Shown here one piece after another: positions 26,628 to 47,127 of a DNA stretch of 47,497 nucleotides. How positions within the stretch are numbered: position 1 is the stretch's first letter; every line of letters starts with the position of its first letter. The position numbers and the translations under genes were made by a program. A model generated the notes under the pieces. That model searched no databases and was not told the origin of the DNA. It saw only the letters and a program-made list of their open reading frames with translations. The stretch comes from Candidatus Erginobacter occultus. GTDB taxonomy: Bacteria; Auribacterota; Erginobacteria; Erginobacterales; Erginobacteraceae. The stretch lies in contig JAVCCZ010000211.1 of assembly GCA_030765265.1 (NCBI GenBank), forward strand, positions 1 through 47,497, written 5' to 3'.

Positions 26628-26755
26628 CCCGCCCCGCCGGCGGACGCTTCTCCTTTTTCTTCTTTGAATTGTCTCTCCGGCGGTTTTCGTGGTAGGGTGG
26701 CGGAGGTTTTTCCGTGAACCTATCCGTCAACCTCAACGTATAAGAGAGAAAGGGA

Positions 26756-27352: not shown

Positions 27353-27372
27353 AAGCGAGGTTCAACAGGTTT

Positions 27373-28086
27373 ATGGACTGCCGGGAATTACAGGAATATA
27401 TCTACGACCGAATCCTTGGAGAAGATTTGCCGGGTCCGGTCGAGGAAAAGTTGGAAGAGCATCTGGGATCTTGCCGGCGATGCCGCCGCCGGCTTCAGGA
27501 AGCGGAATCGGCCTGGAGTTCGCTGGAAGTCCTGGAAAAGGTCCGCTTCCCCGAGAGCCTATCCCGCCGGGTGCTGGCGGCGGTCGCAACCCGGCCGCTG
27601 AAGCTGCTGGACCGGGTTCTCTATCCTCCCTGGCCGGCCCTGGCGGCGGCCTCCCTGATTCTGGCGGCGGGGCTGCTGCTGATCTTTTCCCGGTCCCGCC
27701 CCCCCGGTCCCCAGCCTCTGCGCTCGGCCAGCACCTTTGCCCGGAGCCCGGTCCCCGGTCCCGATCTGGCCGCGACCCTGGACGGATACCTGGAAGAGTC
27801 GGAGACGATTCTGGCCGGCCTCGAGAGCGGGGATTATGCCACCTGGGGGGCGCTGCTCGCCGAGATCGTCTCCCGGGATATCCAGGGGCGGTCCAATTAC
27901 CTCCTGGAGAATGAGATGCTGGACCGCCGGGCCCGTTCGGTGGTCGAGTCCCTCCACCGGGCCTTCTGGTCCCTGCTCCAGACCGGCCGGGGCCGGGAAG
28001 ATGAGATGATCCGGATCCCCCCCGGGGTCAATCCGGCCCTGCTACGGAGCGAGATCGTGAGCTGCCGGACAACGGACCGACGATAA
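27373..28086 (+). CDS. Zinc-finger transmembrane anti-sigma factor
   Basis: A 237-residue single-pass membrane protein. The N-terminal anti-sigma domain has the ZAS pattern Cys3 ... His30-x3-Cys34-x2-Cys37 (MDCRELQEYI, EEHLGSCRRC). One membrane helix lies at about residues 87-106 (WPALAAASLILAAGLLLIFS). The periplasmic part (about 130 residues) has no family I recognise and would be the sensor. It should hold the ECF sigma factor at the membrane until a signal arrives. ATG 27373 starts exactly at the zinc-finger sequence. gspC starts 24 bases after its stop, so read-through into the T2SS operon is likely. Confidence 0.85.
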   Translation: MDCRELQEYIYDRILGEDLPGPVEEKLEEHLGSCRRCRRRLQEAESAWSSLEVLEKVRFPESLSRRVLAAVATRPLKLLDRVLYPPWPALAAASLILAAGLLLIFSRSRPPGPQPLRSASTFARSPVPGPDLAATLDGYLEESETILAGLESGDYATWGALLAEIVSRDIQGRSNYLLENEMLDRRARSVVESLHRAFWSLLQTGRGREDEMIRIPPGVNPALLRSEIVSCRTTDRR

Positions 28087-28110: not shown

Positions 28111-29091
28111 ATGCTGACAAGAAGACAGGTCACCCTGATCAACCTGGTCCTGGCCCTGATCCTGGCGGGCGGGGGTGGGTATATGTTCTGGACTTATTAC
28201 CAGGTGGGTCCGCCGGAAGCAGTCACGGCTCTCCCGTCCGGCCCGCCGATTGTCCTGACCACCCCGACCCCTCTCGGGCCGGACTATTACGGCCTAATCG
28301 TCAGCCGGAATCTCTGGAGGGAAAAGTTCGCCGCCCCGGTCGAGGGCCCGCCGCCGACCCCGGTCCCGCCCCAGGTGCCGCCGCCGAACCTGAAATTGCT
28401 GGGGACGTCAATCCGCGAGGATCCGAAACGGAGTTCGGCGATTATCGAAGAGGTGGCCAGGAAGCAGCAGCACTATTCCCGGATCGGCGACGTGGTCGCC
28501 GGAGCGACGGTCCTGGAGATCCACCGCAACCAGGTTGTCCTCGATCACCGGGGAAATATCTTCACCATTTCGACCCAGTTGTTCAAGGACAGCATCCCGG
28601 TGGAGCGGCCCGCTGTCCCGCTTGCCCGGGTGATCCGTCCGCTGGGGAAGAACCAGTGGCTGATCAGCAAGCAGGGAATCTGGCAGCTGATCTCCAACAA
28701 TAAGTGGCTGGTCAGCAAGAAGGGTCTCTGGCAGCTGCTTAACGTTAACCGGGTCAAGGTCGAGGTCAAGGAAGTTCAGGCGGAGATAATGAAAGCGCTG
28801 TCTAATGTTGGCTGCCGGACCTATTACCCGCCGGGGCGGCCCCGCCGCGGCGAGGCCGAGGGCTACGAGATCCTGGTCCTCCCCGAACGGCACCTGGCGA
28901 CCTTTCTCGGGATCAAGCCGGGGGATATTATCCGGACGGTCAACGAAGAGCTGATTACCAGCAAGACCCGGGCCTTGGAACTCCTCCAGGAAGTTCAGGA
29001 CGAGGAGGTTGCCATCGTTGAGATCGAGCGGGAGAAAGAAACCATCCAGCTGGAATACCAGATCCAGTACGAACTGCTGGAATTGCAATAG
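28111..29091 (+). CDS. gspC: Type II secretion system protein GspC
   Basis: A 326-residue inner-membrane protein that connects the platform to the secretin. A short cytoplasmic start is followed by one helix (INLVLALILAGGGGYMF), then a Pro-rich stretch. The homology region (about residues 58-165) holds YYGLIVSRNLWREKF, KLLGTSI and YSRIGDVVAGATVLEIHRNQVVLD. The C-terminal PDZ domain holds LATFLGIKPGDIIRTVNEELI. Between them lies a 16-residue tandem duplication (residues 181-195 and 197-211), which I do not know from other GspC proteins. There is little ribosome-site signal before ATG 28111. First gene of the gspC-M operon. Confidence 0.88.
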   Translation: MLTRRQVTLINLVLALILAGGGGYMFWTYYQVGPPEAVTALPSGPPIVLTTPTPLGPDYYGLIVSRNLWREKFAAPVEGPPPTPVPPQVPPPNLKLLGTSIREDPKRSSAIIEEVARKQQHYSRIGDVVAGATVLEIHRNQVVLDHRGNIFTISTQLFKDSIPVERPAVPLARVIRPLGKNQWLISKQGIWQLISNNKWLVSKKGLWQLLNVNRVKVEVKEVQAEIMKALSNVGCRTYYPPGRPRRGEAEGYEILVLPERHLATFLGIKPGDIIRTVNEELITSKTRALELLQEVQDEEVAIVEIEREKETIQLEYQIQYELLELQ

Positions 29092-31465: not shown

Positions 31466-33184
31466 ATGATCTCGAATCGGACAGTTGAAGAGATCCTTCT
31501 CGAAGAAGGAGCCATCGACGATGAAACCCTGGCCAAGGCCCGGGCCCGGCAATCCGGTCCCGCCCGGGGCCAGGCCATCGGTGATATTCTCCTCGAACTG
31601 GGGGCGATCAACCAGGAGCAGTACCGCCGGGCGCTCGGCCGCCAGCTCAACCTTCCCTACCTGGAATCCCTCTCCGAGGAGATGGTCGATAAGGAGATCA
31701 TCTCCCGGGTGCCGATTAACTTCCTCCTCGCCCACCAGCTGATTCCGCTCCAGGAGGAGAACGGGGTCGTCCGGGTGGCGATGGCCAACCCGCTCGAGGT
31801 CCAGCCCCTCGATGACCTCCGGCTGCTTTTGGAGAAAGAGGTCACCCCGGTGGTTAGTCCGCCCGACGAGATCGTCCGGATCGCCAACCGCTCCTACGGC
31901 CACGCCGAGGGTGCGGCCGAGGCGGTGATGGAGGGGATGGAGGAGGACGAAGCCGCCGAGCAGGTAACCGTGGCCGACCAGGCCGAGGATCTCCTCGACA
32001 TCGCCTCCAAGGCCCCGGTGATCAAGCTGGTCAACCTGATCCTCTTCGAGGCGGCCAAGGCCCGGGCCAGCGATATCCATATCGAGCCCTTTGAGAAGGA
32101 ACTCCGGGTCCGCTACCGGATCGACGGCGTCCTTTACGAAGCCCTGACCCCGCCCAAACAGTACCAGTCGGCGATCACCTCCCGGATCAAAATTATGGCC
32201 AACCTGAATATCGCCGAGAAGCGTCTCCCCCAGGACGGCCGGATCAAGATCCGGATCACCGACCGGGAGATCGATCTCCGGGTCTCCCTGATCCCGGTCT
32301 CTTTCGGGGAGCGGATCGTGCTCAGACTCCTCGACCGCTCAGCCCAGATTTACAGTCTTCACGACCTCGGGATGAGCGATGACCGGCTGGCCCTCTTCGC
32401 CCGGCTGCTCAAGCTTACTCACGGGATTATCCTGGTCACCGGGCCGACCGGGTCGGGGAAGACCACCACCCTCTACGCCGCCCTCTCGGCCGTCAACTCC
32501 CAGGAGCAGAATATCATCACCGTCGAGGACCCGGTCGAGTACCAGATGGCGGGGATCGGGCAGATCCAGGCCAACCCCAAGATCGGGCTGACCTTTGCCA
32601 GCGGTCTCCGCTCGATCCTCAGGCAGGACCCGGACGTGGTCTTGATCGGGGAGATGCGGGACCACGAGACCGCCGAGATCGCCATCCAGGCCAGCCTGAC
32701 CGGCCACCTGGTCTTCTCCACCCTCCACACCAACGACGCCTCCGGGGCGATCACCCGGCTGGTCGATATGGGGGTCGAGGCCTACCTGGTCTCCTCCTCG
32801 GTGGTCGGGATTATGGCCCAGCGGCTGGTGCGGACGATCTGCCCCCACTGCCGGGAGAGCTTCCGTCCTGAAGAAGAAGCCCTGAAGGAGATCGGCCTCA
32901 CCCTGGACGATATCCCGGAGAAAACTCTCTACCGGGGACGGGGCTGCGACAAGTGTTTTCAATCCGGGTATATGGGCCGGAGCGGGATCTTCGAGATTCT
33001 TTTAATCGACGACGAGATCCGCCGGATGGTCCTGGAGCGGACCAATACCGGGGTGATCAAGAAGGCGGCCCTGAGAAAGGGGATGCGGACCCTGCGGATG
33101 GACGGCGCCCGCCAGGTCAGGGAAGGGAATACCACCATCGAGGAAGTCGTCCGGGTCACCCAGGAAGACATTATCGAAGTCTAA
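31466..33184 (+). CDS. gspE: Type II secretion system ATPase GspE
   Basis: A 572-residue cytoplasmic hexameric ATPase that powers pseudopilus assembly. The N-terminal N1E domain (LGRQLNLPYL) is followed by the N2 domain with ASDIHIEPFEKELRVRYRID. Walker A is GPTGSGKT (326-333). The Asp box and Walker B (PDVVLIGEMRDHETAEIAIQ) and the His box (LVFSTLHTNDA) follow. The zinc motif is Cys459-x2-Cys462 and Cys494-x2-Cys497. Length is at the upper end of normal because the N1E region is complete. It starts 17 bases after gspD. Confidence 0.96.
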   Translation: MISNRTVEEILLEEGAIDDETLAKARARQSGPARGQAIGDILLELGAINQEQYRRALGRQLNLPYLESLSEEMVDKEIISRVPINFLLAHQLIPLQEENGVVRVAMANPLEVQPLDDLRLLLEKEVTPVVSPPDEIVRIANRSYGHAEGAAEAVMEGMEEDEAAEQVTVADQAEDLLDIASKAPVIKLVNLILFEAAKARASDIHIEPFEKELRVRYRIDGVLYEALTPPKQYQSAITSRIKIMANLNIAEKRLPQDGRIKIRITDREIDLRVSLIPVSFGERIVLRLLDRSAQIYSLHDLGMSDDRLALFARLLKLTHGIILVTGPTGSGKTTTLYAALSAVNSQEQNIITVEDPVEYQMAGIGQIQANPKIGLTFASGLRSILRQDPDVVLIGEMRDHETAEIAIQASLTGHLVFSTLHTNDASGAITRLVDMGVEAYLVSSSVVGIMAQRLVRTICPHCRESFRPEEEALKEIGLTLDDIPEKTLYRGRGCDKCFQSGYMGRSGIFEILLIDDEIRRMVLERTNTGVIKKAALRKGMRTLRMDGARQVREGNTTIEEVVRVTQEDIIEV

Positions 33185-33205: not shown

Positions 33206-34426
33206 ATGCCGGTATTTGATTACAAGGCGTTAAACGGGAAGGGCGAACAGGCGTCGGGGATTATCGACGCTGACAGCGCCGCCGCCGCCCGTTCCAAGCT
33301 CCGCCGCCAGGGGCTCTTCCCGACCGAGGTGACGGAGTCGGAGGAGAAGATCGACCTGAGGAGCGATCAGGCGATCTCCCGAATCTTTCACCGGGTCAAG
33401 GCCGGCGAGGTGGCGGTCTTCACCCGGCAGACCGCCACCCTGCTCGCTTCCGGTCTCCAGCTGGTCCAGGCCCTCAACGCCCTGATCGACCAGTTGGAGA
33501 AAAGCCCCCTGAAAAGGGTGATCATCAAGGTCCGGGACCAGGTCAACGCCGGCCAGAGTTTTGCCGAATCCCTCAAGGGTTTTCCCCGGATCTTTCCGCC
33601 GCTCTATACCAATATGATCGAGGCCGGGGAAGCCGCCGGCGCCCTCGACGTGGTCCTGGAGCGGCTGGCCGACCTGACCGAGAAGAACGTCAAGATGCGC
33701 AACCACATCCGCTCGGTGATGATCTACCCGCTCCTGGTCGGTTTTATCGGGGTGGCGGTGATCGTCTTCCTCCTGGTCAACGTCGTCCCCACCATCACCA
33801 GCATCTTCGCCGAGACCCAGCAGGCCCTGCCCCTCCCCACGGTGATCCTGTTGAGCGTCAGCGACTTTGTCCGCGGTTACTGGTGGGCCCTGATCCTGAT
33901 CGCGGCCGGTCTTTACTTTCTCTTCAATTTCTGGAAGAACGGCCGCCGGGGCCGGATGGTGATCGACCGGCTCAAGCTCCGGCTCCCCCTCCTCGGCCCC
34001 CTGGTCAGGAAGATCGCCGTGGTCCGCTTCAGCCGGACCCTGGCCACCCTGGTCTCCAGCGGGGCCCCCCTGATCGAATCTCTCCGGATTGTCGGCTCGA
34101 TCGTCAATAACACCGTAATCGCCTCCGCGATCGGTGACGCGATCGAGGCGATCCGGGCCGGGCAGTCGATCGCCGGCCCTTTCCGGAAGAGCCGGATCTT
34201 TCCCCCGATCGTGGTCCATATGATCGCGATCGGCGAGGCCAGCGGTTCCCTGGAACCGATGCTGGAGAAGATCGCCCAATCCTACGAGGACGAGGTCGAT
34301 ACCACGGTCAGCGCCCTGACCTCTCTCCTGGAGCCGATAATGATCGTGATTATGGGGGTGGTGGTCGGTTACATCGTCCTCTCGATTATGCTGCCGATCT
34401 TCCAGATGAGCCAGGTGATGGCGTAG
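33206..34426 (+). CDS. gspF: Type II secretion system inner-membrane platform protein GspF
   Basis: A 406-residue polytopic protein with the duplicated GspF domain. Features in order are the N-terminal FDYKALNGKGEQASGIIDAD and FTRQTATLLASGLQLVQALN. The first membrane pair includes YPLLVGFIGVAVIVFLLVNV. The second copy contains FSRTLATLVSSGAPLIESLR, and the last helix is PIMIVIMGVVVGYIVLSIML. It is the standard length. ATG 33206 follows TCGGAG. It contacts the ATPase and GspL at the base of the pseudopilus. Confidence 0.95.
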   Translation: MPVFDYKALNGKGEQASGIIDADSAAAARSKLRRQGLFPTEVTESEEKIDLRSDQAISRIFHRVKAGEVAVFTRQTATLLASGLQLVQALNALIDQLEKSPLKRVIIKVRDQVNAGQSFAESLKGFPRIFPPLYTNMIEAGEAAGALDVVLERLADLTEKNVKMRNHIRSVMIYPLLVGFIGVAVIVFLLVNVVPTITSIFAETQQALPLPTVILLSVSDFVRGYWWALILIAAGLYFLFNFWKNGRRGRMVIDRLKLRLPLLGPLVRKIAVVRFSRTLATLVSSGAPLIESLRIVGSIVNNTVIASAIGDAIEAIRAGQSIAGPFRKSRIFPPIVVHMIAIGEASGSLEPMLEKIAQSYEDEVDTTVSALTSLLEPIMIVIMGVVVGYIVLSIMLPIFQMSQVMA

Positions 34427-34485: not shown

Positions 34486-34508
34486 ACTTGCCTAAAAGGA
34501 GGCAGGAG

Positions 34509-34922
34509 ATGAGAAGAAAGGAAGCAAAGACTATGTCCAACCAGGGATTCACGCTGGTGGAACTGATGGTCGTGATCGCGATCATCGGTTTTCTGGCCGG
34601 GGTGATCGCTATCCAGGTGAGAAAGCCGATCGGGGACGCCCAGCGGGGGGCGGCCCAGATGCAGATTAAGAATATCGAGTCGGCGATCGGATTTTACTAC
34701 GCCCAGCACTATAAAAATCCCGATACCCTCGCCGTCCTGGTCCCGGACTATATGAAACAGGTTCCGGTTGATCCCTGGGGGAACCCCTATCATTACAGTG
34801 CGGTCAGCCAGCAAGGCCAGGATTTCGACATCGCCTCCTGGGGCGCGGACGGCGCCGCCGGGGGAGCCGGCGAGAACGCCGACGTTACCAACTGGGATAT
34901 CAGCGGATCGGGCGATCAGTAA
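34509..34922 (+). CDS. gspG: Type II secretion major pseudopilin GspG
   Basis: A 137-residue prepilin-like protein. Cleavage by a prepilin peptidase is expected at QG/FTLVELMVV, with Glu at +5. Methylation of the new N-terminal Phe and a single hydrophobic helix (to about residue 37) should follow. The C-terminal part has the GspG hallmark PVDPWGNPYHYS and a calcium-loop-like, Asp/Gly-rich end. The best ribosome site (AAAAGGAGG, 34494-34502) serves ATG 34509, giving a leader of 13 residues. ATG 34533 would give a 5-residue leader and has GAAAGGAA before it. The pseudopilin peptidase (gspO) is not in the window. Confidence 0.93.
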   Translation: MRRKEAKTMSNQGFTLVELMVVIAIIGFLAGVIAIQVRKPIGDAQRGAAQMQIKNIESAIGFYYAQHYKNPDTLAVLVPDYMKQVPVDPWGNPYHYSAVSQQGQDFDIASWGADGAAGGAGENADVTNWDISGSGDQ

Positions 34923-34934: not shown

Positions 34935-35441
34935 ATGGAGCGGCTTGATAACGAGCGGTCCACGGGGTTTACCCTGATCGAGCTAGCCGTGGTCTTGAGT
35001 CTGATCGGGATGATCTTCCTGGTCGTCTTTCCCAATCTTACCGGTCTTTTATCCGGTCGGCGGCTGATGGGGTTCAGCCGGGAGATGGCCGGGGCGCTCG
35101 ATTACGCCCGGGCCCGGGCGGTAATCGAGGGCCGGCCCCTTACCTTCCGGGTCGACCGGGAGGAGGGGGAATACTCGGTCTGGAGGAAGAAAGAGTCCGG
35201 CGACGATTACAGCCGGGCGGCCGAGGACGAGATCGTCAAGAAATGGCAGATCCCGGCCGAGATCAAGGTCGGCCAGGTGGAGCTGGAGACCAAGGTAACC
35301 GAAGGGTTCGAGCCGGTGATCAGGTTTTATCCCCGGGGAAATTCCAACGGGGCGGTGATCTCCCTGGAGACGGTCCGGGGGGACAAGGCCCGGATCCGGG
35401 TCAAGCCGTATACCGGCCGTTCGGAGATAATGGTTAATTGA
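34935..35441 (+). CDS. gspH: Type II secretion minor pseudopilin GspH
   Basis: A 168-residue minor pseudopilin. The leader MERLDNERSTG ends in the cleavage site G/FTLIELAVVLSL, with Glu at +5. A helix and the GspH-type region follow (RLMGFSREMAGALDYARARA, VIEGRPLTFRVD). A beta-rich globular part ends in RIRVKPYTGRSEI. It lies 12 bases after gspG. GspH sits in the pseudopilus near its tip and is thought to prime assembly with I, J and K. Confidence 0.88.
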   Translation: MERLDNERSTGFTLIELAVVLSLIGMIFLVVFPNLTGLLSGRRLMGFSREMAGALDYARARAVIEGRPLTFRVDREEGEYSVWRKKESGDDYSRAAEDEIVKKWQIPAEIKVGQVELETKVTEGFEPVIRFYPRGNSNGAVISLETVRGDKARIRVKPYTGRSEIMVN

Positions 35442-35454: not shown

Positions 35455-35898
35455 ATGAAACCGGGGAGAAACGCCGGGTTTACCCTGCTCGAGGTTATGG
35501 TGGCCGTGGCCATCCTGGCGGTCGGGGTGGTGCCCCTGCTGGTTACCCACGCCACCACGGTCTCCAACATCCGCCGGAGCCGGGAGTTGACCGTGGCCGG
35601 GCTGATGGCCCGGGAGCGGCTGGCCGAGCTGGAGATCTATGGTTTTTTCGCTCTCGCCGACGAGGCGGGTCTCTTCGAGCCGCCGGGGAGTTCCGGCCCG
35701 GGCAGTGAGCCCCATCCGGCTTTAAAGCTCGAGGAGGGGGTGGAAGAGATCGAGCTGGCGGCCCTGCTGGAGGCGAAGGTGGAAGTCAACCGCCGGAACC
35801 GGCCCTCCGGCAAAGAGGATGATCCGTCCGAGATAACCCTGGCTACCTATATCGTGAACCTCTATTTCGAGCCGGAGGAGATGGATCCGGAGGAGTGA
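35455..35898 (+). CDS. gspI: Type II secretion minor pseudopilin GspI
   Basis: A 147-residue minor pseudopilin with short basic leader MKPGRNAG and cleavage site G/FTLLEVMVAVAILAVG, with Glu at +5. The segment VAGLMARERLAELEIYGFFA corresponds to the GspI core. The C-terminal part is acidic. It lies 13 bases after gspH and 4 bases before gspJ. With J and K it should form the tip complex. Confidence 0.88.
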   Translation: MKPGRNAGFTLLEVMVAVAILAVGVVPLLVTHATTVSNIRRSRELTVAGLMARERLAELEIYGFFALADEAGLFEPPGSSGPGSEPHPALKLEEGVEEIELAALLEAKVEVNRRNRPSGKEDDPSEITLATYIVNLYFEPEEMDPEE

Positions 35899-35902: not shown

Positions 35903-36628
35903 TTGCTGAAGCAGCGATTCAAGCAGCCGTTACCCCGCCGGGACGGCGGATTCACGGTGATGGAGATATTGATCGCCATCACTCTGGGCGCGGTTATCCT
36001 GGCTTCGGTTTACGGGTCTTACCATATGGTGGTGAAGACCACCGCCAATTACAACCAGGTCTCCGACATCTACCAGACCGGGCGGATCGTCCTCGACACG
36101 CTGGCCCGGGAGATCAGCGGCGCCTATCAGCCGCTGTTCGCCGAAAAGGGCGAGATGTTTTTCGGGGAAGATGAGTGGTCCGCTGGACGGGAGAGCGATA
36201 CCCTGCGGATGATTACCACCACCTCGCTCCAGAGGAGCGAAACCGAAGTCGGTTACGATTCTTATGAAATCAGTTACTACCTGGGGGCCGGGGAGAAGAA
36301 AGGTCTGCTCCTGATGCAGGCCGCCCCCTACTTCAGCCTCGAAGAACCGTTTGAAGAAGGAGAGGAGATAATATTGGCCGAGAACGTCCGGGCTCTGAAT
36401 TTCGAATACTATGACGGAATGGAGTGGGTCAAGAGCTGGAAATGGGAGGAGCCGGCCGGACAGGATGGTGGAGAGGAAGATGGGGAGGAGCCGCCGGTTC
36501 TCCCCTACGGGGTCCGGATTACCCTCGCCGTCGGCCTGCCGGAAGAGGAGCCGGTCCGCTTCCATACCACCGCTTTCCTCCCGATGACCCCCCGGCCGGA
36601 GGAAGAGGAAGAAGAAGAGGAGCTGTAA
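35903..36628 (+). CDS. gspJ: Type II secretion minor pseudopilin GspJ
   Basis: A 241-residue minor pseudopilin that starts at TTG 35903, behind GGAGG overlapping the end of gspI. The leader is MLKQRFKQPLPRRDGG and the cleavage site G/FTVMEILIAITLGAVI, with Glu at +5. GspJ-type features are YQTGRIVLDTLAREISGAYQ and NVRALNFEYYDGMEWVKSW. The C-terminus is a poly-Glu run (last eight residues), which would give a strongly acidic tip surface. No in-frame ATG before the cleavage site offers a better start. Confidence 0.88.
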   Translation: MLKQRFKQPLPRRDGGFTVMEILIAITLGAVILASVYGSYHMVVKTTANYNQVSDIYQTGRIVLDTLAREISGAYQPLFAEKGEMFFGEDEWSAGRESDTLRMITTTSLQRSETEVGYDSYEISYYLGAGEKKGLLLMQAAPYFSLEEPFEEGEEIILAENVRALNFEYYDGMEWVKSWKWEEPAGQDGGEEDGEEPPVLPYGVRITLAVGLPEEEPVRFHTTAFLPMTPRPEEEEEEEEL

Positions 36629-36670: not shown

Positions 36671-38023
36671 ATGAAGAATTTGCCTTTACTACGTCGACTC
36701 AAGTCCCCAGTTGGTTTCTCCGGGGGAGAATCCGGGGTGGTCCTGCTGACGGTGGTCTTGATGATCGCCCTCCTCGGGGTCCTGGTGATGCAGTACAATT
36801 ACTTAAGCGGATTGGACGCGATGATGGCGATCGGCGCCCGGGACAGCACCGAGGCGTTCTTCCTGGCCCAGGCCGGGCTCAACCAGGCTATCCGGGTCCT
36901 CCAGGAAGATAAACTGGCCGATAGTGAGGAGACCGGGGAAGAGGACGCGACCGGCGGCCGCCAAACGGCGGTCTCCGGTGAGGAGGACGATAGCGGTTAT
37001 GACGGGCTCGACGAAGACTGGGCCCTGCCGCAATCCTGGTCCGAACTCGGCCGGGGGGAGTTCATCTTCAAGATCGTCGACGAGGACCGGAAGTTCAACA
37101 TTAACCTGATTCTTGAAGACGGCGTCTCCGAAGTGGCGGCGGCCCGGACACTGGCCGCCGGTGGTTCCGGGGAGAGCGAAGAGGAGGAAGATCCGGAAAA
37201 GCGTCGGCCGAAAGAAGTGATCGAGAAGAGTCGCGAAGAGGCCCGGGCGCTGGAGCGGGCCGAGTCGAAGCTGGAGGATAAAGAGGAGAAGGAAGAGATC
37301 GAGATCGATGAAGAATCCCGGGAATATCTCGCGATCCAATTATTGCTGGGGAAGGTCCGGGATCTGGCCGACGCGGCCGACGGGATCGATCCCTTCGCCC
37401 GGAGACTCTTCGACACCCCGGCCGGGACCCTGGACGCCATCGTTGACTGGTTCGAGGACAAACCGCCTTCCGGCCCCGATGAGTTTGAACGCTCCGGTCC
37501 GATGGAGACGATCGGGGAGCTGGCCCAGCTCAAGGGGGTGCCCCGGGAGATGCTGGTCGGTTATCCCCGGAGGGAAGAGATCGAGGAGGAGTCGGAAGAG
37601 GAAGGTCTGGTGCTGATCGATCCCTGGGCGCCGAAACCTTTCCTCGGGCTGCGGGGCTACCTCACGGTTTACGGGGACGGGAAGGTGAATATCAACACCG
37701 CCCCCCGGGAGATCCTGGAAGTGATGCTCGAGGACGAAAACGACGACCAGTCCAGCCTGGCGGCCGATGTCATCGCTGCCCGAGAGGAACTGCCGTTCGA
37801 GAAAGTCTCGGATGTCAACGATGACGAGTACCTGCGGGAACAGATCCTGACCAAATTTATGGAAAAATTCAAGGTTACCAGCGAGTACTTCAACATCCTC
37901 TCCGAAGGCCGGGTCGGCCAGGTCGTTGATGATGAGTTCCGGGGAACCACGGTCCGGATCCGCGCCGTGGTCCAGCGGCAGGATAACCGGGTGGTGATCT
38001 GTTACTGGCGGGTGGAGGAGTAG
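36671..38023 (+). CDS. gspK: Type II secretion minor pseudopilin GspK
   Basis: A 450-residue protein, large for a pseudopilin as expected for GspK. The leader ends GGES/GVVLLTVVLMIALLGVLV and lacks the usual Glu at +5, also typical of GspK. The globular part contains GEFIFKIVDEDRKFNINLI, the helix-hairpin-helix-like segment YGDGKVNINTAPREILEVML, and a C-terminal domain ending RAVVQRQDNRVVICYWRV. Between about residues 165 and 220 lies a very acidic, Lys/Glu-rich insert (EEEEDPEKRRPKEVIEKSRE and beyond). It is probably disordered and is not usual in the family. It lies 42 bases after gspJ. Confidence 0.88.
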   Translation: MKNLPLLRRLKSPVGFSGGESGVVLLTVVLMIALLGVLVMQYNYLSGLDAMMAIGARDSTEAFFLAQAGLNQAIRVLQEDKLADSEETGEEDATGGRQTAVSGEEDDSGYDGLDEDWALPQSWSELGRGEFIFKIVDEDRKFNINLILEDGVSEVAAARTLAAGGSGESEEEEDPEKRRPKEVIEKSREEARALERAESKLEDKEEKEEIEIDEESREYLAIQLLLGKVRDLADAADGIDPFARRLFDTPAGTLDAIVDWFEDKPPSGPDEFERSGPMETIGELAQLKGVPREMLVGYPRREEIEEESEEEGLVLIDPWAPKPFLGLRGYLTVYGDGKVNINTAPREILEVMLEDENDDQSSLAADVIAAREELPFEKVSDVNDDEYLREQILTKFMEKFKVTSEYFNILSEGRVGQVVDDEFRGTTVRIRAVVQRQDNRVVICYWRVEE

Positions 38024-38071: not shown

Positions 38072-39691
38072 ATGAAAATTCAGAAACTGTTTCAGAATGG
38101 ATCCGGGCCGGCGCCATCCTGCCGGGCGATCGAGATCGGGACCGGGGCGATACGGGTCGCCGCCCTGAAGAGAGGGGGCAAGACCCCCCGTCTGACCGAC
38201 TACCGGGAAGCCGTTATCCCCCGGCAGGGTCCGGGACCCGCCCCGGCCGAGCTGGTCCGGGAGGAACTCCGGACCCTGGTCAAGGGGATGCGGCTCAAGG
38301 AAGACGTGATCACCACCGCCCTGCCGCTCTCTTCGACCTTTATCCGCCTGCTCGAGGTGCCCTTCACCAGGGTCGCCCAGATCCGCCAGGTGATCGCCTC
38401 CGAGGCCGAACTCCACGTTCCTTTCCCCCTGGAGGAGGTGATCATCGACTTCTGGGTGGTGGAAGAACTCCCGAAGGGGAAGGCCCGGGTGATGATGGCG
38501 GCGGTAAAGAAATCGGTCCTGGAAGTTCGTCTCCGCCTGCTCGCCGAAGCCGGGATCACCCCGACCCGGGTCAACCTCGACATTCTGGGGAACTGCCGGG
38601 CGGCCGTCGCTTCACCGCTTATCGACCCCGCCGAGGTGACGATGCTCCTCGATATCGGGGCCGCCCATAGCGGGGCCGCCTTCCTCCTCGGCGGGAGGGT
38701 GGTCTTTGTCCGGTCGATCTCCTGGGGGGGCGATACCCTTACCGCCGCCCTGGCCGAAACTGCCGGCGGCGGTTTCATCGCGGCCGAGGCCCGAAAGCTC
38801 GCCGCCGAGCCGGGTACAGCCGCACCGGCCTTTGCCGCCGCCTACGATCTTCTCGGGGTCGAACTGCTCCGGACCGTGACCGCCGCCTCCGGTCCCTGCG
38901 GCGGCCGGGCTCCCGACCGTTTGGTCCTGACCGGGGGCGGGAGCCGCGCGCCGGGCCTGGGAAAGTACTTGGAAGAGAAAACGGGGTTGAAGATAGTCGA
39001 GATCAGCCCCTCTTCGATTATCCGTTCCCGGCGGACCCCGCCCGGCCCCGGTTCCGCCGCCGTGATCGGCCTCGCCCTGAGCGAGACCGAACCCACCCGG
39101 GACCGGGTCGATTTCCGGCGGGAGGAGTTTGCCTTCACCGGGGCCTGGAAGAAGATTCGCCGCCGGATCATCTTAACCGGCTTTTTGACCGCCGGGGTGC
39201 TGGCCCTGCTGGCGTTGGGATTTTTCTGGAAGATCGGGATGGAGAGGAGAGAGGTGGAAAAGATCGACCGGCGGATCCGGCAGATCGTCCGCCTGACCTT
39301 CCCCGAGGCCCCGGTCCCGGTTCCCGGCCAGGAATTGCGGGTGATGGAAGAGGAACTGGAGAAGGCCGTCCAGGAACTGAATTTTTACCGGGAACTGGTC
39401 TCGATTTCGGCTCTCGATATCCTCCGGGAGATCAGCCGCGTGGTGCCGGAGTCGATCAAGGTCCAGGTGGTGGTGATGGATATCGACGAAAACCGGGTTG
39501 TCTTCCGCGGCCGGACCAACAACTACCGGTCGGCGGAACTGATCAAGAACGCCCTGGCCCAGTCGGAGTACTTCGATGGGGACAAGATCCGGGAGACCCG
39601 GGATTCCAAGACCCTCCTGAAAGGGGGCGAGCTGGTGACCGTGGAATTCGAGTACCTGCTCCCCCTGGCCTCGCGGGAGGGAACGCAATAG
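38072..39691 (+). CDS. gspL: Type II secretion protein GspL (PilM-PilN fusion type)
   Basis: A 539-residue protein. Residues about 15-345 form the cytoplasmic actin-like PilM/GspL domain: CRAIEIGTGAIRVAALKRGG, FIRLLEVPFTRVAQIRQVIA, EVTMLLDIGAAHSGAAFL and RLVLTGGGSRAPGLGKYL. A membrane helix follows at about 370-388 (RIILTGFLTAGVLALLALGF). The periplasmic PilN-like part has a coiled coil and a ferredoxin-like end (LREISRVVPESIKVQVVVMD). In type IV pili these are separate PilM and PilN; here they are one chain, as in GspL. It should bind GspE inside the cell and GspM in the membrane. Confidence 0.88.
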   Translation: MKIQKLFQNGSGPAPSCRAIEIGTGAIRVAALKRGGKTPRLTDYREAVIPRQGPGPAPAELVREELRTLVKGMRLKEDVITTALPLSSTFIRLLEVPFTRVAQIRQVIASEAELHVPFPLEEVIIDFWVVEELPKGKARVMMAAVKKSVLEVRLRLLAEAGITPTRVNLDILGNCRAAVASPLIDPAEVTMLLDIGAAHSGAAFLLGGRVVFVRSISWGGDTLTAALAETAGGGFIAAEARKLAAEPGTAAPAFAAAYDLLGVELLRTVTAASGPCGGRAPDRLVLTGGGSRAPGLGKYLEEKTGLKIVEISPSSIIRSRRTPPGPGSAAVIGLALSETEPTRDRVDFRREEFAFTGAWKKIRRRIILTGFLTAGVLALLALGFFWKIGMERREVEKIDRRIRQIVRLTFPEAPVPVPGQELRVMEEELEKAVQELNFYRELVSISALDILREISRVVPESIKVQVVVMDIDENRVVFRGRTNNYRSAELIKNALAQSEYFDGDKIRETRDSKTLLKGGELVTVEFEYLLPLASREGTQ

Positions 39692-39807: not shown

Positions 39808-40341
39808 ATGGGCTTGCAACCAAGAGAAAAACGGACGGTGATAGTCGGCGGCTGCCTCTTGTTTCTGATGGCGGTGCTTTACCTATTTTTCGTCAGCGAG
39901 GATTCCCTTTACCAACGCTGGACCGAGCTGCAAAGCGACGTCGCCGGTCGCCAGGAGGTCCTCTCCAAAATGGTCCGGGCCCAGGTCGCTTACCGGAATC
40001 TGACCCGGGAGGTCGGCCGGGTAACCGTCCGGCTGGCCGGAGCCGGCCGGGAGGCCACCCTGAAGGGTTATCTGGAAAGGCTGATCCGGGAACAGGCTCC
40101 GTCCGCCCGGCTGAAGCGGATGCCCTCCCGCGATCAGACCGTGGCCGACCTCTACCGCCAGACCCTGGTCACGATCGACCTGGAAAATATCACCATCCCC
40201 GAACTGGTTGATATTATGTCGGCGATGGAAGCCTCCGACCAGGGGATCAAGGTCCAGGGTTTGAAAGTCACCCTCAGCCGGGGAAGCGAAGACCAGCTCG
40301 ACGCGATCATCACCGCCCTGGCCGCCCGGCCGATGAATTGA
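39808..40341 (+). CDS. gspM: Type II secretion protein GspM (PilO-like)
   Basis: A 177-residue bitopic inner-membrane protein. A short basic N-terminus (MGLQPREKRT) is followed by one helix (VIVGGCLLFLMAVLYLFFV), a periplasmic coiled coil (about residues 35-75) and a small alpha/beta domain. The domain contains LKGYLERLIREQAPSARLKR and LVTIDLENITIPELVDIM, characteristic of GspM/PilO. ATG 39808 follows CGGGAGAG. It is the last recognisable T2SS gene; gspN and gspO are absent. The giant propeller gene follows after 84 bases. Confidence 0.85.
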   Translation: MGLQPREKRTVIVGGCLLFLMAVLYLFFVSEDSLYQRWTELQSDVAGRQEVLSKMVRAQVAYRNLTREVGRVTVRLAGAGREATLKGYLERLIREQAPSARLKRMPSRDQTVADLYRQTLVTIDLENITIPELVDIMSAMEASDQGIKVQGLKVTLSRGSEDQLDAIITALAARPMN

Positions 40342-40425: not shown

Positions 40426-43400
40426 ATGGAACAACCAGGCAAAAAGTTAATCTTTGCGGCCCTGGCGGCCGCGGTCCTGCTGGGAGGGATCTCCGGACCT
40501 CTCCCCGCCGAAGATGGCTCCATCTCCGCCCCGCCCCGTCCGGGCATCATCATCCCGGGAGGAGAGATCAATTTCTCCGCTCGCCGAGCGGAAGGCGGAC
40601 CGGCCTTCTCCAGTAGCCGCTTCCAGCCCACCTCGTCCCGGTTCGGAGCGACCACCGGCCGTGGAGCCGATGCCATCGCCAAAGATGATGGGAAAACCCC
40701 GTCTCCTTCTCCGACTCTCTCCCCGATCCCCACCCTGACTCCGGAAGATTTTAAGACTCCCATCCCGGCTCCCACCGCCATTCCCACCCCCAGCCCGGTG
40801 CCGCCTCCCTGGGTCTCCCCCGGAACTCTCTCCCGGGTCTACCTCCCGGATCTGGACTATCTCTTCAGCTACCCTTCCGGCAAGATCGAGGTAATAGTGA
40901 CCTCCCCCGATCGGACCCGGACCCGGCGGACGGTCCTGGAGCAGACGGACTACAGCCCCAAGAAAAAAACCCTGGCCTATCCGTTGCTCAGCAAAGCTTA
41001 TCGCCTGGTTTACTGGCAATTATTCGGAATCTCTCTCGCCACCCCCACACCCACCCCTCCCCCGTCTGCCACCCCCACTCCGACCCCGGAAGGTTTCAAG
41101 ACCCCACCGTCTACTCCGTCCCCTGTACCGACTCGTTCTCCCTCGCCTTCTCCAACCGCTACCCCCTCACCGGTTCCCAGCATCGCGGCTTTTGCTCTGA
41201 TGACAACGATTGAGGCCGGTGGATCAAATATCTGGTCGCTCTGGGCCGACGAAGCTAACCTCTGTGCCGGCACCGATGATGGGAGTATTTATATTTGGGA
41301 TCGGAATGAAAGCGGGGCTTTCAATCTCCAGACTGTCATCACCATAGATCTCCTGGAGGAAATATATGGTTTGAGCGGTTATACGGTTACCGATCCGCAA
41401 AGTCTTTACGGGGCAACTTCAGGGGGGGTAGTCCGGGAATGGCGGAAGAACGGTTCCTGGGAATACTACAATTACGAGCCCAAGACCACGCCTCCGCCGT
41501 CTATGAACGCGGTGGCGGCGGACGGGGACCTGATCTGCGCGGCCAATGCCGATGGCGGGGTCTATGTCTGGTCAGCCGGGGACTTTACCCTCCAGACCGT
41601 TATCGCCCCCGCGGTCGATCCAATGCATTCGGTCAGTCTTGACCCGTACTATTATATATTTGCCGGCGGGCAGGATGGATCAGTTTATGGCTGGAATCGG
41701 AGCGATTTTACTTTCTTGACCGAGTTTGCCGCCTTCAGTGAACCCATTTACGCTACCGAGATAGATGATGATTATCTTTACGCCGGGGGCAGCGCTCGCT
41801 TCCTCAGTCGATGGTCGCTCACCGACTTCACTGCTTCAACCTGGGGAAACCAGAGCGTCTCCGATCTCAGTTCCGACGGCCGGCAGTACATCGCCGCGGT
41901 CGGCGGGGGAGATGCTCTTTACGTCTGGACTACCGATGATTTCAGTCTCCAGACCGTCTGCACCGTTGCTTCCGAAACGTTCCATAGCGTTTTTGCTGAC
42001 CGGCACGAAGAGACGGCTGAAAATCCGCGCTACATTTTTACCGGCGGCGGAGATGCTCAGATTTATGTCTGGTGGGGAGACAACCCTTCGCTCTTGGGCT
42101 CTGCTCGCGGCAGCGGTTTGCCCAAGTCCGGGAAGCTATCCCCGTCCCCGATAGATTATCCGCCCGCCCCCCGGACTCCCGCCGGGACGGCAACCCCCAC
42201 CGCTTCTCCCACCCCGCTCCCTCCGGTTACGCCCGTTCCCGGACCGGGGGAGGGGACCTTTGACCTGGTGGGGACGATCGAGGTCGGGCCGCCGGTCTGG
42301 TCGGTCTGGGCCGACGACCGCTATCTCTACGGCGGGACCGGGGATGGCTCGGTCTATATCTGGGAGCGGGGTCCGGGGGGATTTTATTTCCAGGGGTCGG
42401 TCGGCGGTTATACCGAGGGGAATATCTACGGACTTGCCGGCCACCAGGGGCTGTTCCAGCGTCGTCTTTACGGGGCCAGCGAGGACGGGACGGTCTACGC
42501 TTGGGATTTTGATCTCCGTTCCGGCGGTTTGGCCTTGCTGGCCTCGCTCGACCAGGGCGGCAGTTTTATGTACTCGGTGGCGGCCGACCGGGAGCTGATC
42601 TGCGGAGGGAACAACGACGGCGGAGTTTACGTCTGGTCGGCCTCCGACTTCAGCCTCCAGACCGTTTTCAATCGCGGCGCCGGCCCGGTCCTCTCGGTCA
42701 GCCTCGATCGGGACTATATCTACGGCGGTTTCGCCGACGGGGCGGTCTTTCTCTGGGACCGGGAGACCCTGGCCCCGGCCAACGCCTTCTCCGCCTCAGC
42801 CGATATCGTCTGGGCGACGGCGGTTGACGGGGATAATTTCTACGGGGGAGGCTCCTCGCCGGCCCTGGCCGGATGGTCGAAAGCCGACTTCAGCCTTTCG
42901 ACCGGGGAAGGCGGCCCCCCCGGACCGGTCGCCGGTCTGGCTTCGGATTGGCGGAACTACTTAAGCGGGGCCGGCCCGGACGGCGCTCTCTATGTCTGGT
43001 CGCTCGCCGACTTTTCGCTCCAGACCGTATCCCGGGCTTCCTCCGCCCCCCTCTACAGCGTCTTTGCCGACCTTTACCGGACCGGCGATCGATTCCCCCA
43101 TTTCATCTACGGGGGCTCGGCCGACGGCAATATCTATGTCTGGCAGGGAGAACGGACCCTGACCCCGACCCCCACGCCAAGCCTCCCGCCCACCCCGCCC
43201 CCGCCCCCCTCGGCCACCCCGCCCGATTACCGGACCCCGCCTCCCACCGCCACCGCCACCGCCACTCCGCGCGGATTGAAGACGCCCACCCCGCCGCCCA
43301 CCCCGATGTTGCTTCCCACCCCGCCGGACCGGGCGACCCCGCCGCCGGTGCCCTCGCCGACTTTCGGGACCCGGATTATGCTCGACCCCACCGCGACCCC

Positions 43401-46400
43401 GCCCCCGGCCTCGACCCCGACCCCGGTCGCTTCGCCTTCCGCCACCCCGGCCGACTTTTCCCTCCTGGCCGTTCTTGACGGGGCCGAGGGCTGGATGCTG
43501 GGGGTCTATGCCGACCGGGACTTTATCTACGGCGCCGGGCAGGATAACCAGATTCATATCTGGGACCGGGAGACCTACAATAAGGTCACCGGCCTGACCG
43601 TCCCCGAATGCCGGTCGATGCTCGGGGTCTACGCCGATGAGGATTATGTTTACGGGGCCAACGACGACAGCCGGGTCTACGTCTGGGACCGGAAGAATTT
43701 CGGTCTCCGGCACGTCCTCGGCGACGGCCGTTACTACGTCGAGTCGGTCTTTGCCGATCCGGATTACCTTTACGGGGCTAACTACGACGGAGGTATCTAT
43801 CTCTGGGACCGGACCGACTTCAACCTCCAGACCCGTCTCTCCGGTCCCCGGGGCTGGCTGGACACGGTCTTTGCCGACGGGGGCCGGATCTACGCTGGGT
43901 CCGGCGGCATCTCGCACTCGGTTTCGATCTGGGACCGGGCCGATCTCTCCTTTCTCCGGAGCCTGACCGGCCCGGGGGACGACCTGAATTCGGTCTTTGC
44001 CGACCCGGACTACATCTACGGAGCCTCCGCCGACGGGAATCTCTATCTCTGGGACGCCGGGAGCTTCCGGCTGGAAAAAATCCTTTCCCAGCCGGTCAAC
44101 CAGGTGACTTCGGTGGTCGCCCGGGATCCGTTTATCTATGCCGCCAGTCTCGACCACGGCCTCTACGTCTGGGACAAGGCCAGCCTGCTGCTCTACCGGG
44201 TGATCGATGAGATGGAGCAGCCGCTCCAGGGGGTCTGTGTCGAGGGAGAGCAGATCTTCGCCGCCGGGCGGGACGGAAAGATTTACGTCTGGCAGGCCCC
44301 CTCGGCGGCCAAGGCCGCCGCCACCCCGGCCTCCGGGTACCCTTACCCGCCGGTTCCGCCTTCCCAACCGGATGCCGCGATGGTGGTCGGGGAATTGCTC
44401 TCGATGGCCGGCGGGAACGATTACTACGGGGGGATCGCCTGGAAAGACGGCTATCTCTACGAAAACGTGGCGAAGGATAACATTATCTATCAGCTGAATC
44501 CGGATGACGGAAAGCTCGTGGACCGGGTCAGCGGCCTCCAGACCAGTAAGGACATCGGGATCGCCTGGAATCCGGATAATGACTGTTGGTACATCGCCGA
44601 CCCCTGGGAGACCGGGATCAGCCTCTTTCGGGAATCAAGTCCCGAGGAGTACGAACTCTCCGTCCGTTCCTACGGCAACGTCACCGGACTTTTCTATGAT
44701 CCGGAGCGGCAGGAGCTGCTCTCGGCCAATAATGTCCAGGATTATATCAACATCTGGTCCACTGATCCCCGGGAACCGCTCCGCCTGGTGGACCGGATCG
44801 AGGTCGGTTTCCCCCAGGGGGGGGTGGCCGCGGTCGGCGACCGTCTCTGGGCGGGGCTTTACACCGAGGAATCTTACGGACCGGTCTATGAACTGGACCG
44901 GGAGGGGGTCAAGACCGGCCGCCGGTTCGTCCTCCCCGAGGGACGGCACGCCTGGGATATGGCCTGGGACGGCGCTTATCTCTGGATCCGGTCGGATTAC
45001 CGCCACGGTAATATCAAGATTTACCAGGTCGATATCGGCGCCCCCGCCGGCGGCGGCAGCGGATTGGAAGACGCCCCTGTGAAGAATGCGGCTTTGCCGG
45101 TTCAAACCCCGGTCCCGGAAGAGAAGAGAACTTTTACCGCCCCCCGGCCGACCCCGGCCGTCTTCGAGTGGGTCCCCCCGGCCGAACCTTACGACCCGCG
45201 CAAGAAGTCGCTGGGATACTCGCTCCTCCAGGATACCTACAAGCAGACCTACCTCGAACTCTTCGGTATCCTCCTCACCACCCCGACCCCGCCGCCGACC
45301 CCGGTGCCGACACTGACCCCGGTGCCGACCGTGATACCGATCCCGACTGTTAAGCCGACCCTGACCCCGGAAGACTACAAGTCCCCGACTCCTTTCGACA
45401 ATACCTTCGGCAACGGCTCGGGAGGTTCGCTCCGGGGGGCGGCACCGATTACGAATATCTCCCTCTGGGAGTACGCTGATTGGATCGACTTCGCCACCGG
45501 GCGCTACTTCAAGATTTACGAGGGGGACCGGGCGGAAGCGGAGGATCAGGCCATCCTCTACGACTACCTCCCCAACGCCGCCTTTATCTACCTGGTCACC
45601 GGGTACCGGCCGACGGGGCTCTACTTCAAGCAGAACCTCCTCGACCTGGTCCGGGATCAGAGCTTTGACTGGGGTGGGAAAGAACACAGCCGTTATATCG
45701 CCGACCTCGCCGAATCCTATCTTGCTGTTCTCTCCAGCGGGCTTTTCAACGAGGAGGAAAGGCTGGAGATCCGGGAGAAGTTTTACCAGCTGGCCCTCGA
45801 GCGCCGGAAGTTTGGCGGGGAGGGGCATTCCGAACAGGGGATTATCTGCGGGCTCAACGCCGTGGCCGGTTACCTGGTTGGCGGCGAGCGGGGAGGGGAG
45901 ATGATCGAGTGGGCCAACCGGCTCCTCAGTTACGACGATACCTGGACCCTTCCCGAGAACTCCCGCCATTACCAGGGGATCTTCCTTCAGGAGATGCTTC
46001 GGGTCGCCCTTTACTCCAACCGGATGACGATCCCTGAGGCCGACCGAGAGGGCCGAAACTGGAAGCGGAACTTTGCCCGCCAGGTCCAGTGGATCATCGA
46101 GTCCTCCCCCCACAACGGGTACAGCCCGGCCCAGGGCGAGGAGTTCCATCCCAACCACCTCGGCCACTTTATGGCTCCGCTGGCGGTGGCGACCACGGTT
46201 CTTGACGACGGCGATCCCGAACATCTCCGGCTGGCCTCGGAGGCGAAATGGCTGCTCCAGGCGATGTACAACTACGCCGATACCCACCGGGTCGGCGGTT
46301 ACGGCCAGAACCTCTACGGCTACGGCTCCTCGCAGTGGGGACCATTCGCTATCCTCCTGAACCCGGTCTATCTTTACTGGTTTCTCAACGAAGGCCTGGC

Positions 46401-47127
46401 CGCTGTCCCTCCCGCCGCCGGATCGTCGGTCGTCTATCGACCGATGCTGGCCAAAGATTCGCCGGATGGGGTTTACGATGAGAGTTTTCCGGAACTGGTT
46501 ACCCAGCCCGACCGGATAGTCCACCGTTCCGGCTGGGGAGAAAACGCTCTCTTTTTAGCCCTCGACCCGGCCTATCCGGCGGCCAAGTCGGGAGAGGCGA
46601 AATACAGTTTCGCCAACAATATCCTCAGTCTCTCCTATGGGCCGGAGGAGTTCCTGACCGGTCTGACCGCCAACGAAAAATCCGGGGAGAAGACTCGGGC
46701 CAACCTGGCCGATATCCTCTCCGATTACTCGGGGGCGGAGCTGGTCAGCTGGGTTGACGATTCCGAAATTTCCCGTTCGGTCACCCGCCTCCGGGAAAGG
46801 GGGAACAGTTGGACCCGGGAAGTGACCCTGTACAAGACCGAGGACCGGAGAATCGAGGTTCGCGATACCCTATCCCATCGGGGGAGCGTTTACTGGCATT
46901 TCTCCGGACAGCCGTTGCGTGAGGAGAATGGGGTGATTCTGGATGTCAACGGAACCCGGCTCTCGGTCGATTGGGAGGGAGCGGAACAGGTCTCCCGCCG
47001 CAATCGAACGACCTGGTCCGACCCCGACCCGGAAAAGCGCTGGACCTACTCCGGGCCCTCCGACCACGAGATCAAGCTCTACCGCTCGACCCCGGGGACG
47101 ATCGTCACCGTTTTCCGGGGGCTGTGA
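40426..47127 (+). CDS. Giant exported multi-propeller protein with C-terminal lyase-like domain
   Basis: About 2233 residues. A signal peptide (LIFAALAAAVLLGGISGPLPA) comes first, then a Thr/Pro/Ser linker and a 31-residue cassette (40951-41043). Three WD40-like propellers of seven blades each follow, at about 41180-42100, 42258-43160 and 43455-44300. A typical blade reads SVFADPDYLYGANYDGGIYL, then WDRTDFNLQT. Propellers 1 and 2 match blade for blade, so one arose by duplication. A fourth propeller-like segment (about 44370-45060) and a second copy of the cassette (45190-45282) precede the C-terminal domain (about 45430-47127). That domain is an alpha-helical toroid with EGHSEQG, ENSRHYQG and EEFHPNHLGH, followed by a beta-sandwich. 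This resembles heparinase II/III or alginate-lyase folds; catalysis is inferred. It follows gspM by 84 bases and is the leading T2SS cargo candidate. ATG 40426 is chosen; TTG 40420 is in frame. Confidence 0.85.
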   Translation: MEQPGKKLIFAALAAAVLLGGISGPLPAEDGSISAPPRPGIIIPGGEINFSARRAEGGPAFSSSRFQPTSSRFGATTGRGADAIAKDDGKTPSPSPTLSPIPTLTPEDFKTPIPAPTAIPTPSPVPPPWVSPGTLSRVYLPDLDYLFSYPSGKIEVIVTSPDRTRTRRTVLEQTDYSPKKKTLAYPLLSKAYRLVYWQLFGISLATPTPTPPPSATPTPTPEGFKTPPSTPSPVPTRSPSPSPTATPSPVPSIAAFALMTTIEAGGSNIWSLWADEANLCAGTDDGSIYIWDRNESGAFNLQTVITIDLLEEIYGLSGYTVTDPQSLYGATSGGVVREWRKNGSWEYYNYEPKTTPPPSMNAVAADGDLICAANADGGVYVWSAGDFTLQTVIAPAVDPMHSVSLDPYYYIFAGGQDGSVYGWNRSDFTFLTEFAAFSEPIYATEIDDDYLYAGGSARFLSRWSLTDFTASTWGNQSVSDLSSDGRQYIAAVGGGDALYVWTTDDFSLQTVCTVASETFHSVFADRHEETAENPRYIFTGGGDAQIYVWWGDNPSLLGSARGSGLPKSGKLSPSPIDYPPAPRTPAGTATPTASPTPLPPVTPVPGPGEGTFDLVGTIEVGPPVWSVWADDRYLYGGTGDGSVYIWERGPGGFYFQGSVGGYTEGNIYGLAGHQGLFQRRLYGASEDGTVYAWDFDLRSGGLALLASLDQGGSFMYSVAADRELICGGNNDGGVYVWSASDFSLQTVFNRGAGPVLSVSLDRDYIYGGFADGAVFLWDRETLAPANAFSASADIVWATAVDGDNFYGGGSSPALAGWSKADFSLSTGEGGPPGPVAGLASDWRNYLSGAGPDGALYVWSLADFSLQTVSRASSAPLYSVFADLYRTGDRFPHFIYGGSADGNIYVWQGERTLTPTPTPSLPPTPPPPPSATPPDYRTPPPTATATATPRGLKTPTPPPTPMLLPTPPDRATPPPVPSPTFGTRIMLDPTATPPPASTPTPVASPSATPADFSLLAVLDGAEGWMLGVYADRDFIYGAGQDNQIHIWDRETYNKVTGLTVPECRSMLGVYADEDYVYGANDDSRVYVWDRKNFGLRHVLGDGRYYVESVFADPDYLYGANYDGGIYLWDRTDFNLQTRLSGPRGWLDTVFADGGRIYAGSGGISHSVSIWDRADLSFLRSLTGPGDDLNSVFADPDYIYGASADGNLYLWDAGSFRLEKILSQPVNQVTSVVARDPFIYAASLDHGLYVWDKASLLLYRVIDEMEQPLQGVCVEGEQIFAAGRDGKIYVWQAPSAAKAAATPASGYPYPPVPPSQPDAAMVVGELLSMAGGNDYYGGIAWKDGYLYENVAKDNIIYQLNPDDGKLVDRVSGLQTSKDIGIAWNPDNDCWYIADPWETGISLFRESSPEEYELSVRSYGNVTGLFYDPERQELLSANNVQDYINIWSTDPREPLRLVDRIEVGFPQGGVAAVGDRLWAGLYTEESYGPVYELDREGVKTGRRFVLPEGRHAWDMAWDGAYLWIRSDYRHGNIKIYQVDIGAPAGGGSGLEDAPVKNAALPVQTPVPEEKRTFTAPRPTPAVFEWVPPAEPYDPRKKSLGYSLLQDTYKQTYLELFGILLTTPTPPPTPVPTLTPVPTVIPIPTVKPTLTPEDYKSPTPFDNTFGNGSGGSLRGAAPITNISLWEYADWIDFATGRYFKIYEGDRAEAEDQAILYDYLPNAAFIYLVTGYRPTGLYFKQNLLDLVRDQSFDWGGKEHSRYIADLAESYLAVLSSGLFNEEERLEIREKFYQLALERRKFGGEGHSEQGIICGLNAVAGYLVGGERGGEMIEWANRLLSYDDTWTLPENSRHYQGIFLQEMLRVALYSNRMTIPEADREGRNWKRNFARQVQWIIESSPHNGYSPAQGEEFHPNHLGHFMAPLAVATTVLDDGDPEHLRLASEAKWLLQAMYNYADTHRVGGYGQNLYGYGSSQWGPFAILLNPVYLYWFLNEGLAAVPPAAGSSVVYRPMLAKDSPDGVYDESFPELVTQPDRIVHRSGWGENALFLALDPAYPAAKSGEAKYSFANNILSLSYGPEEFLTGLTANEKSGEKTRANLADILSDYSGAELVSWVDDSEISRSVTRLRERGNSWTREVTLYKTEDRRIEVRDTLSHRGSVYWHFSGQPLREENGVILDVNGTRLSVDWEGAEQVSRRNRTTWSDPDPEKRWTYSGPSDHEIKLYRSTPGTIVTVFRGL

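Follow-up and report, generated by a model that had tools for sequence, protein, structure and literature searches.

A propeller-bearing exported protein encoded at the end of a type II secretion operon in Candidatus Erginobacter occultus, a candidate cargo with a predicted lyase-type domain

Beta-propellers of the WD40 type, tandem bacterial ones among them (PDB 2ymu, our best Foldseek match), are built from four-stranded blades of ~40 residues, with seven blades per ring and a WD signature. In the toroid-type lyases, a helical toroid is followed by a beta-sandwich, and catalysis combines a toroid Tyr and Asn with a sandwich His (PMC12088678 Table 4; PMC11848413). The sandwich His is catalytic in PL12/15/17/21/33/35/39, and in PL8 and PL23 both His and Tyr are located in the toroid (PMC12088678). 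Among cargos of type II secretion systems (T2SS), SslE of Escherichia coli is a surface-exposed one encoded with its operon (PMC3707838). Propellers are also found in a secretion machine: PorE/PG1058 is a periplasmic, propeller-bearing component of the type IX system (PMC5053529, PMC7192894).

The window is the whole stretch of DNA that was analysed, 47,497 nucleotides of contig C39 in the Candidatus Erginobacter occultus genome, which has 249 contigs and is 87% complete. Named PVC-group relatives of this genome include the soda-lake sediment genomes B1Sed10_207 and CSSed11_89, and the sample series of such genomes has been described (PMC6146748). The window encodes a large exported protein with the following features, for which residues are numbered throughout from an in-frame TTG at 40420 (aa 1).

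40426-47127, + strand: whole gene of the multidomain exported protein, 2,233 aa (ORF; kept in three further species)
40426-40512, + strand: Sec-type signal peptide (MEQPGKKLIFAALAAAVLLGGISGPLPA-ED), aa 3-31 (read from sequence)
40951-41034, + strand: box 1 (YSPKKKTLAYPLLSKAYRLVYWQLFGI), aa 178-205 (sequence motif)
41185-42087, + strand: propeller 1, seven WD40-type blades, aa 256-556 (Pfam, signature count, homology to propeller 2)
42247-43149, + strand: propeller 2, seven WD40-type blades, aa 610-910 (Pfam, predicted strands, signature count)
43112-43482, + strand: long Pro/Thr-rich linker, aa 898-1021 (by composition, so that its edges overlap the propellers; pLDDT <50)
43447-44298, + strand: propeller 3, seven WD40-type blades, aa 1010-1293 (Pfam, predicted strands, signature count)
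44371-45042, + strand: propeller 4, most likely five-bladed and non-WD40, aa 1318-1541 (predicted strands, weak sequence similarity)
45190-45279, + strand: box 2 (YDPRKKSLGYSLLQDTYKQTYLELFGILL), aa 1591-1620 (sequence motif; predicted helix, low confidence)
45472-46419, + strand: helical part of the probable lyase-fold domain, ~aa 1685-2000 (predicted helices, Foldseek, alignment)
46432-47124, + strand: beta-sandwich part, ~aa 2005-2235, with the RSGW strand at aa 2036-2039 (predicted strands, Foldseek, alignment); the canonical catalytic His is absent
aa 85-148, 192-267, 565-628, 1558-1594 and 1601-1667: other Pro/Thr-rich linkers (by composition)

The gene starts with ATG at 40426 and its stop codon is at 47125-47127. 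From the N terminus, the protein consists of the signal peptide, Pro/Thr linkers, box 1, propellers 1 and 2, a Pro/Thr linker of ~100 residues, propellers 3 and 4, box 2, another linker, and the C-terminal domain (~1685-2235). In the sequence, the signal peptide has a positive n-region, a hydrophobic core and an A-x-A-like site. The N-termini of homologues are similar, and a signal peptide is found at the start of every readable homologue. Beyond it, we saw neither a transmembrane segment nor a lipobox, nor any domain known to bind peptidoglycan or the outer membrane. The short motif TP-x-G-[YF]-K-T-P recurs in the Pro/Thr-rich linkers of ~8 large ORFs of the source genome (window 40681-40776 and 41047-41178; L074, L075, L079, L080, L082, L083, L092) and in the homologues of relatives. 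Its candidate roles are glycosylation, cleavage, sorting, or mere repeat drift.

Propellers 1 to 3 are of the WD40 type, with a Pfam WD40 (PF00400) score of 69.3 bits against a curated cut-off of 27, and sequence matches in the PDB also support them. Each of the three blocks contains exactly seven blade signatures, starting at aa 281, 329, 372, 413, 453, 490 and 540 in propeller 1, at aa 636, 683, 727, 767, 807, 848 and 896 in propeller 2, and at aa 1036, 1077, 1117, 1157, 1199, 1239 and 1279 in propeller 3. When each block was shuffled 2,000 times, the mean was 0.4-0.9 signatures and the maximum was 4. In an AlphaFold2 model of aa 610-1543 (4-sequence alignment, mean pLDDT 73), propellers 2 and 3 contain 28 strands each, or 7x4. 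The seven-blade ring of propeller 1 is assigned by its signatures and by homology to propeller 2 (42% identity over its length). Propeller 3 is more distant, being 27-32% identical to propellers 1 and 2.

In the same model, aa 1318-1541 contain 20 strands (5x4) and no WD signature, so that this segment most likely forms a ring of five blades that lacks WD motifs. It is conserved in two relatives (G001 and G002). Its sequence has weak similarity to glutamine cyclotransferase/SMP-30-like propellers (PF05096, PF08450, DUF6923), the leads being DUF6923 (E=3e-4) and glutamine cyclotransferase (E=0.03). All of these matches are below curated cut-offs, and we do not claim such an activity for propeller 4. 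Compared with 2ymu and other WD40 propellers, the three WD40-type rings are alike in blade length, strands per blade, blades per ring, WD signature, and a PF00400 score above cut-off. Unlike those propellers, the window protein is exported, carries its three rings separately on Pro/Thr linkers, and adds the five-bladed non-WD ring and the predicted lyase-fold domain.

The original prediction placed a secreted protein with three closed seven-bladed WD40 propellers at 40426-47127. The ORF agrees with these coordinates, and secretion is supported by the signal peptide here and in homologues. The closed rings and the 7+7+7 WD40-type blades are borne out by the evidence above, with propeller 1 by homology. 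The total of three propellers and 21 blades does not stand, since the fourth, five-bladed propeller makes 26 blades. The prediction also overlooked the paired box and the secretion operon upstream. The rarity attributed to secreted WD40 propellers carries little weight here, as the source genome encodes another apparently exported WD40 protein. This second propeller protein (L002:577-2547, G000:C158) has an apparent signal sequence, a Pro/Thr linker and a C-terminal 'YFGxxGDxPVPxxY' repeat array, which resembles a VCBS/FG-GAP-type propeller.

The window gene closes a complete gspC-gspM operon on one strand, and its ATG lies 84 bases after the end of gspM. The operon comprises the following genes, identified by Pfam unless indicated.

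28111-29091, + strand: gspC (T2SSC, PDZ)
29181-31448, + strand: gspD, secretin
31466-33184, + strand: gspE, ATPase
33206-34426, + strand: gspF
34488-34922, + strand: gspG, major pseudopilin
34935-35441, + strand: gspH, minor pseudopilin
35455-35898, + strand: gspI, minor pseudopilin (N-methylation motif and position only)
35903-36628, + strand: gspJ, minor pseudopilin
36671-38023, + strand: gspK
38072-39691, + strand: gspL (PilM-like)
39808-40341, + strand: gspM (24.4 bits, under the curated 27.8; adjoins the window gene in all four species)

Upstream of gspC (window 24188-28086) are genes for a cyclophilin-FMN-binding fusion, a matrixin-like protease and a zf-HC2 protein, and a zf-HC2 homologue also precedes gspC in the relative G004 (L041). 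Elsewhere, at window 1940-4351, an ORF fuses ABC_sub_bind (PF04392) to an outer membrane efflux domain (PF02321, TolC-like), an odd fusion of substrate-binding protein and efflux channel that is followed by HlyD- and AcrB-type genes.

We searched the whole genomes of 44 phylum members and the GTDB contigs, and found the family of the window protein in four species only. In the other three (G001, G002 and G004), the homologue also lies directly after gspK-L-M, gspD is 57-78% identical to the window copy, and the gspH-I-J order is kept in G004. G003, a 94% complete genome of the same taxonomic family, has no homologue, no gspL match, and no T2SS-type gspD, with a 35% partial match to a distant secretin only. 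Other families of the phylum have gspL-gspM with no copy of the window gene next to them. The linkage in four of four species, the co-absence in G003 and gspL-gspM without the gene elsewhere make a dedicated T2SS cargo the most economical interpretation, with numbers that are small (four linked species and one relative with co-absence). The domain orders of the four proteins are given below, where WD7 is a seven-bladed WD40 propeller, P5 the predicted five-bladed one, and LTD the Lamin Tail Domain.

Window: box 1, WD7, WD7, WD7, P5, box 2, C-domain
G001: box 1, contig break, WD7, WD7, P5, box 2, LTD, C-domain (cut)
G002: box 1, two extra domains, WD7, WD7, P5, contig break, LTD end, C-domain
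G004: box 1, one extra domain, WD7, box 2, LTD, C-domain

The four proteins share the signal peptide, one or more WD7 propellers and the C-domain, as well as the boxes wherever these were sequenced. They differ in how many WD40 propellers they have (1 to 3), in their extra N-terminal domains, and in the LTD (PF00932). The LTD is matched in two scanned relatives (best E=1.2e-13), G002 shows the last part of a similar domain, and the window protein has none. At window 45364-45420, where relatives carry the LTD, there is only 'PFDNTFGNGS', and the words PFDGT and AGNGS occur near both LTD ends in G001 (L018:3110-3600), perhaps a trace of LTD deletion. In G002, two contigs end inside the gene with Illumina adapter-like sequence (L011:3605-3680 at the C406 end and L035:7545-7603 at the C298 end; GAGCACACGTCTGAACTCCAGTCAC, ATCTCGTATGCCGTCTTCTGCTT). 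The apparent truncation is thus an assembly artefact, and gene decay in G002 was rejected.

The box is a paired element of ~30 residues. Box 1 is present in all four species, and box 2 wherever the region is sequenced. The source genome has two clear copies, both inside the window gene, and by its sequence motif the paired box is limited to the family of the window protein. As no other protein of the source genome carries it, the box as a general T2SS signal was rejected.

The C-terminal domain probably has an (alpha/alpha)-toroid plus beta-sandwich fold of the lyase type. Its model, built from four sequences, contains ~11 helices followed by ~11 strands, with low confidence (mean pLDDT 45, pTM 0.39). 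A Foldseek search with this model returned 22 PDB chains at E<=0.001, all from the toroid-type lyase/epimerase superfamily, namely PL12/15/17/33/39 lyases or human dermatan sulfate epimerase 1. The best match is 3a0o, a PL15 alginate lyase (E=3.9e-8). With TM-scores of just 0.20-0.29, the model does not reproduce the global packing, and the assignment is one of local structure. Pfam, NCBIfam and PDB sequence searches gave no significant match, and two hits, a sialidase (E=0.16) and Pfam 'Luciferase' (E=0.4), were rejected as chance. There is also no match to Hepar_II_III (PF07940), though true members exist in the source genome. One protein encoded there (L047, G000:C200:618-1271) has a Hepar_II_III_C domain (PF07940) and an HGHGD loop, so the lineage has standard lyase-type relatives. 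Profile-profile alignment with the longer of the 27 Hepar_II_III proteins of the phylum was not significant (best E=0.025, probability 2%), and the residue mapping below is therefore anchored on RSGW and on plain absence of His. Across the family the domain is 62% and 44% identical. In comparisons that cover three full-length copies, 200 alignment columns are invariant in the three species, including the toroid motifs LSYDxTWxxPENS and EMLRVALYxNRMTIP.

In its predicted helices-then-strands order and its local structural match, both from the low-confidence model, the domain is like the PL12/15/17/21/33/39 lyases and dermatan sulfate epimerase. It differs from them in the lack of a sequence-family match, of the canonical sandwich His, and of a Tyr at the aligned place (in a weak alignment). 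The homologue of G004, the most divergent, has no His downstream of RSGW, and the family thus has no conserved sandwich His; 19 of the 27 PF07940 proteins of the phylum match a simple H-x-H-x-D-type loop pattern. Only two His are invariant among the three full-length copies: H1916, which lies in the toroid, and H2035, immediately ahead of RSGW. The aligned position of the catalytic Tyr is Leu, Ile and Ile in these copies, in an alignment (E=0.025) whose register is insecure; the same alignment places the invariant N1912 and H1916 on the helix of the catalytic Tyr. As a mark of toroid lyases we looked in the toroid for a catalytic Tyr separated by 52-57 residues from a catalytic Asn; N1847 could be that Asn.

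These observations bear on whether the domain may be an active lyase or epimerase on uronic-acid polymers, with the propellers as carbohydrate-binding or targeting modules. An active enzyme would be consistent with a fold whose matches are all lyases plus dermatan sulfate epimerase, and with the invariant columns, toroid motifs included. The overall conservation would also suit an enzyme that works through atypical residues, the helix weakly aligned to that of the catalytic Tyr carries N1912 and H1916, and PL8 and PL23 provide a precedent for His and Tyr both in the toroid (PMC12088678). Against it are the missing sandwich His, the Leu/Ile/Ile in place of Tyr, and the lack of a PF07940 match in a genome with true members, and we regard this reading as doubtful. 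More probably, the domain either has no catalytic role or relies on residues other than the canonical ones; with the canonical His absent, sugar binding is likelier than cleavage. Of the original prediction for this domain, the order of helices then strands stands, and the lyase-like fold is supported by the Foldseek check, with the low model confidence and TM-scores given above and a profile-profile comparison that was not significant. Its catalytic reading is not supported, as the sandwich His has no counterpart, and its 'Asn/His/Tyr-rich' motifs do not amount to a catalytic signature with only two invariant His.

We propose that the gene product is a dedicated cargo of the T2SS encoded directly upstream. 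Sec would export the protein, which would fold in the periplasm; the T2SS would then carry it out, to be released or held at the cell surface. The three WD40-type propellers and the five-bladed one, on their Pro/Thr-rich linkers, would form an extended, multivalent binding array outside the cell, and we assume that the propellers bind glycans. The C-terminal toroid and sandwich would most likely add a cleft that binds acidic polysaccharide, and standard Tyr/His/Asn cutting is improbable given the sandwich His missing across the family. We give this statement as a whole a probability of about one half. SslE is alike in being large, exported, and encoded together with its own T2SS (PMC3707838). 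This likeness is limited to operon linkage and surface exposure of the cargo; SslE serves as a precedent only, and no common domain is claimed.

The fact that the gene closes the gsp operon in each of the four species could instead mean that the protein is an accessory to the secretion machine in the outer membrane or periplasm, with propellers and boxes as a scaffold, like PorE, and the paired boxes found nowhere else in the source genome would also suit such a role. We consider an accessory unlikely, because no membrane, lipid or envelope-binding element was seen beyond the signal peptide, the T2SS loci of the phylum's other families do without the protein, and the long Pro/Thr linkers and variable propeller number suit an extracellular protein. 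The contrast between the constant box 1, box 2 and C-domain and the varying propellers, N-terminal domains and LTD could also indicate that the two boxes, together with the C-terminal module, serve for export or anchoring, and that the propellers are interchangeable passengers. Known T2SS signals are conformational, and the box, found in no other source-genome protein, is no general one; we therefore find this distinctly unlikely. The dedicated-cargo reading might extend to a cargo class in which a triad-less toroid-lyase fold serves as a non-catalytic module for glycan binding, anchoring or export recognition, together with a family-unique paired box and interchangeable propeller passengers, a generalization that we put forward tentatively and as rather improbable.

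Every component fold is already known, and we class the protein as a variant of established kinds, not as a category of its own. It is a new family by virtue of how the parts are combined, its link to the operon, the pairing of the box, and the toroid-lyase fold without its His. The protein is an operon-linked candidate cargo for the otherwise uncharacterised T2SS of an uncultured PVC-group lineage, and a testable case of a uronate-lyase fold without the canonical histidine. If the domain cuts, it would do so by a superfamily mechanism absent from PMC12088678 and PMC11848413. If it binds without cutting, the fold would have been turned into a binding or anchoring module.
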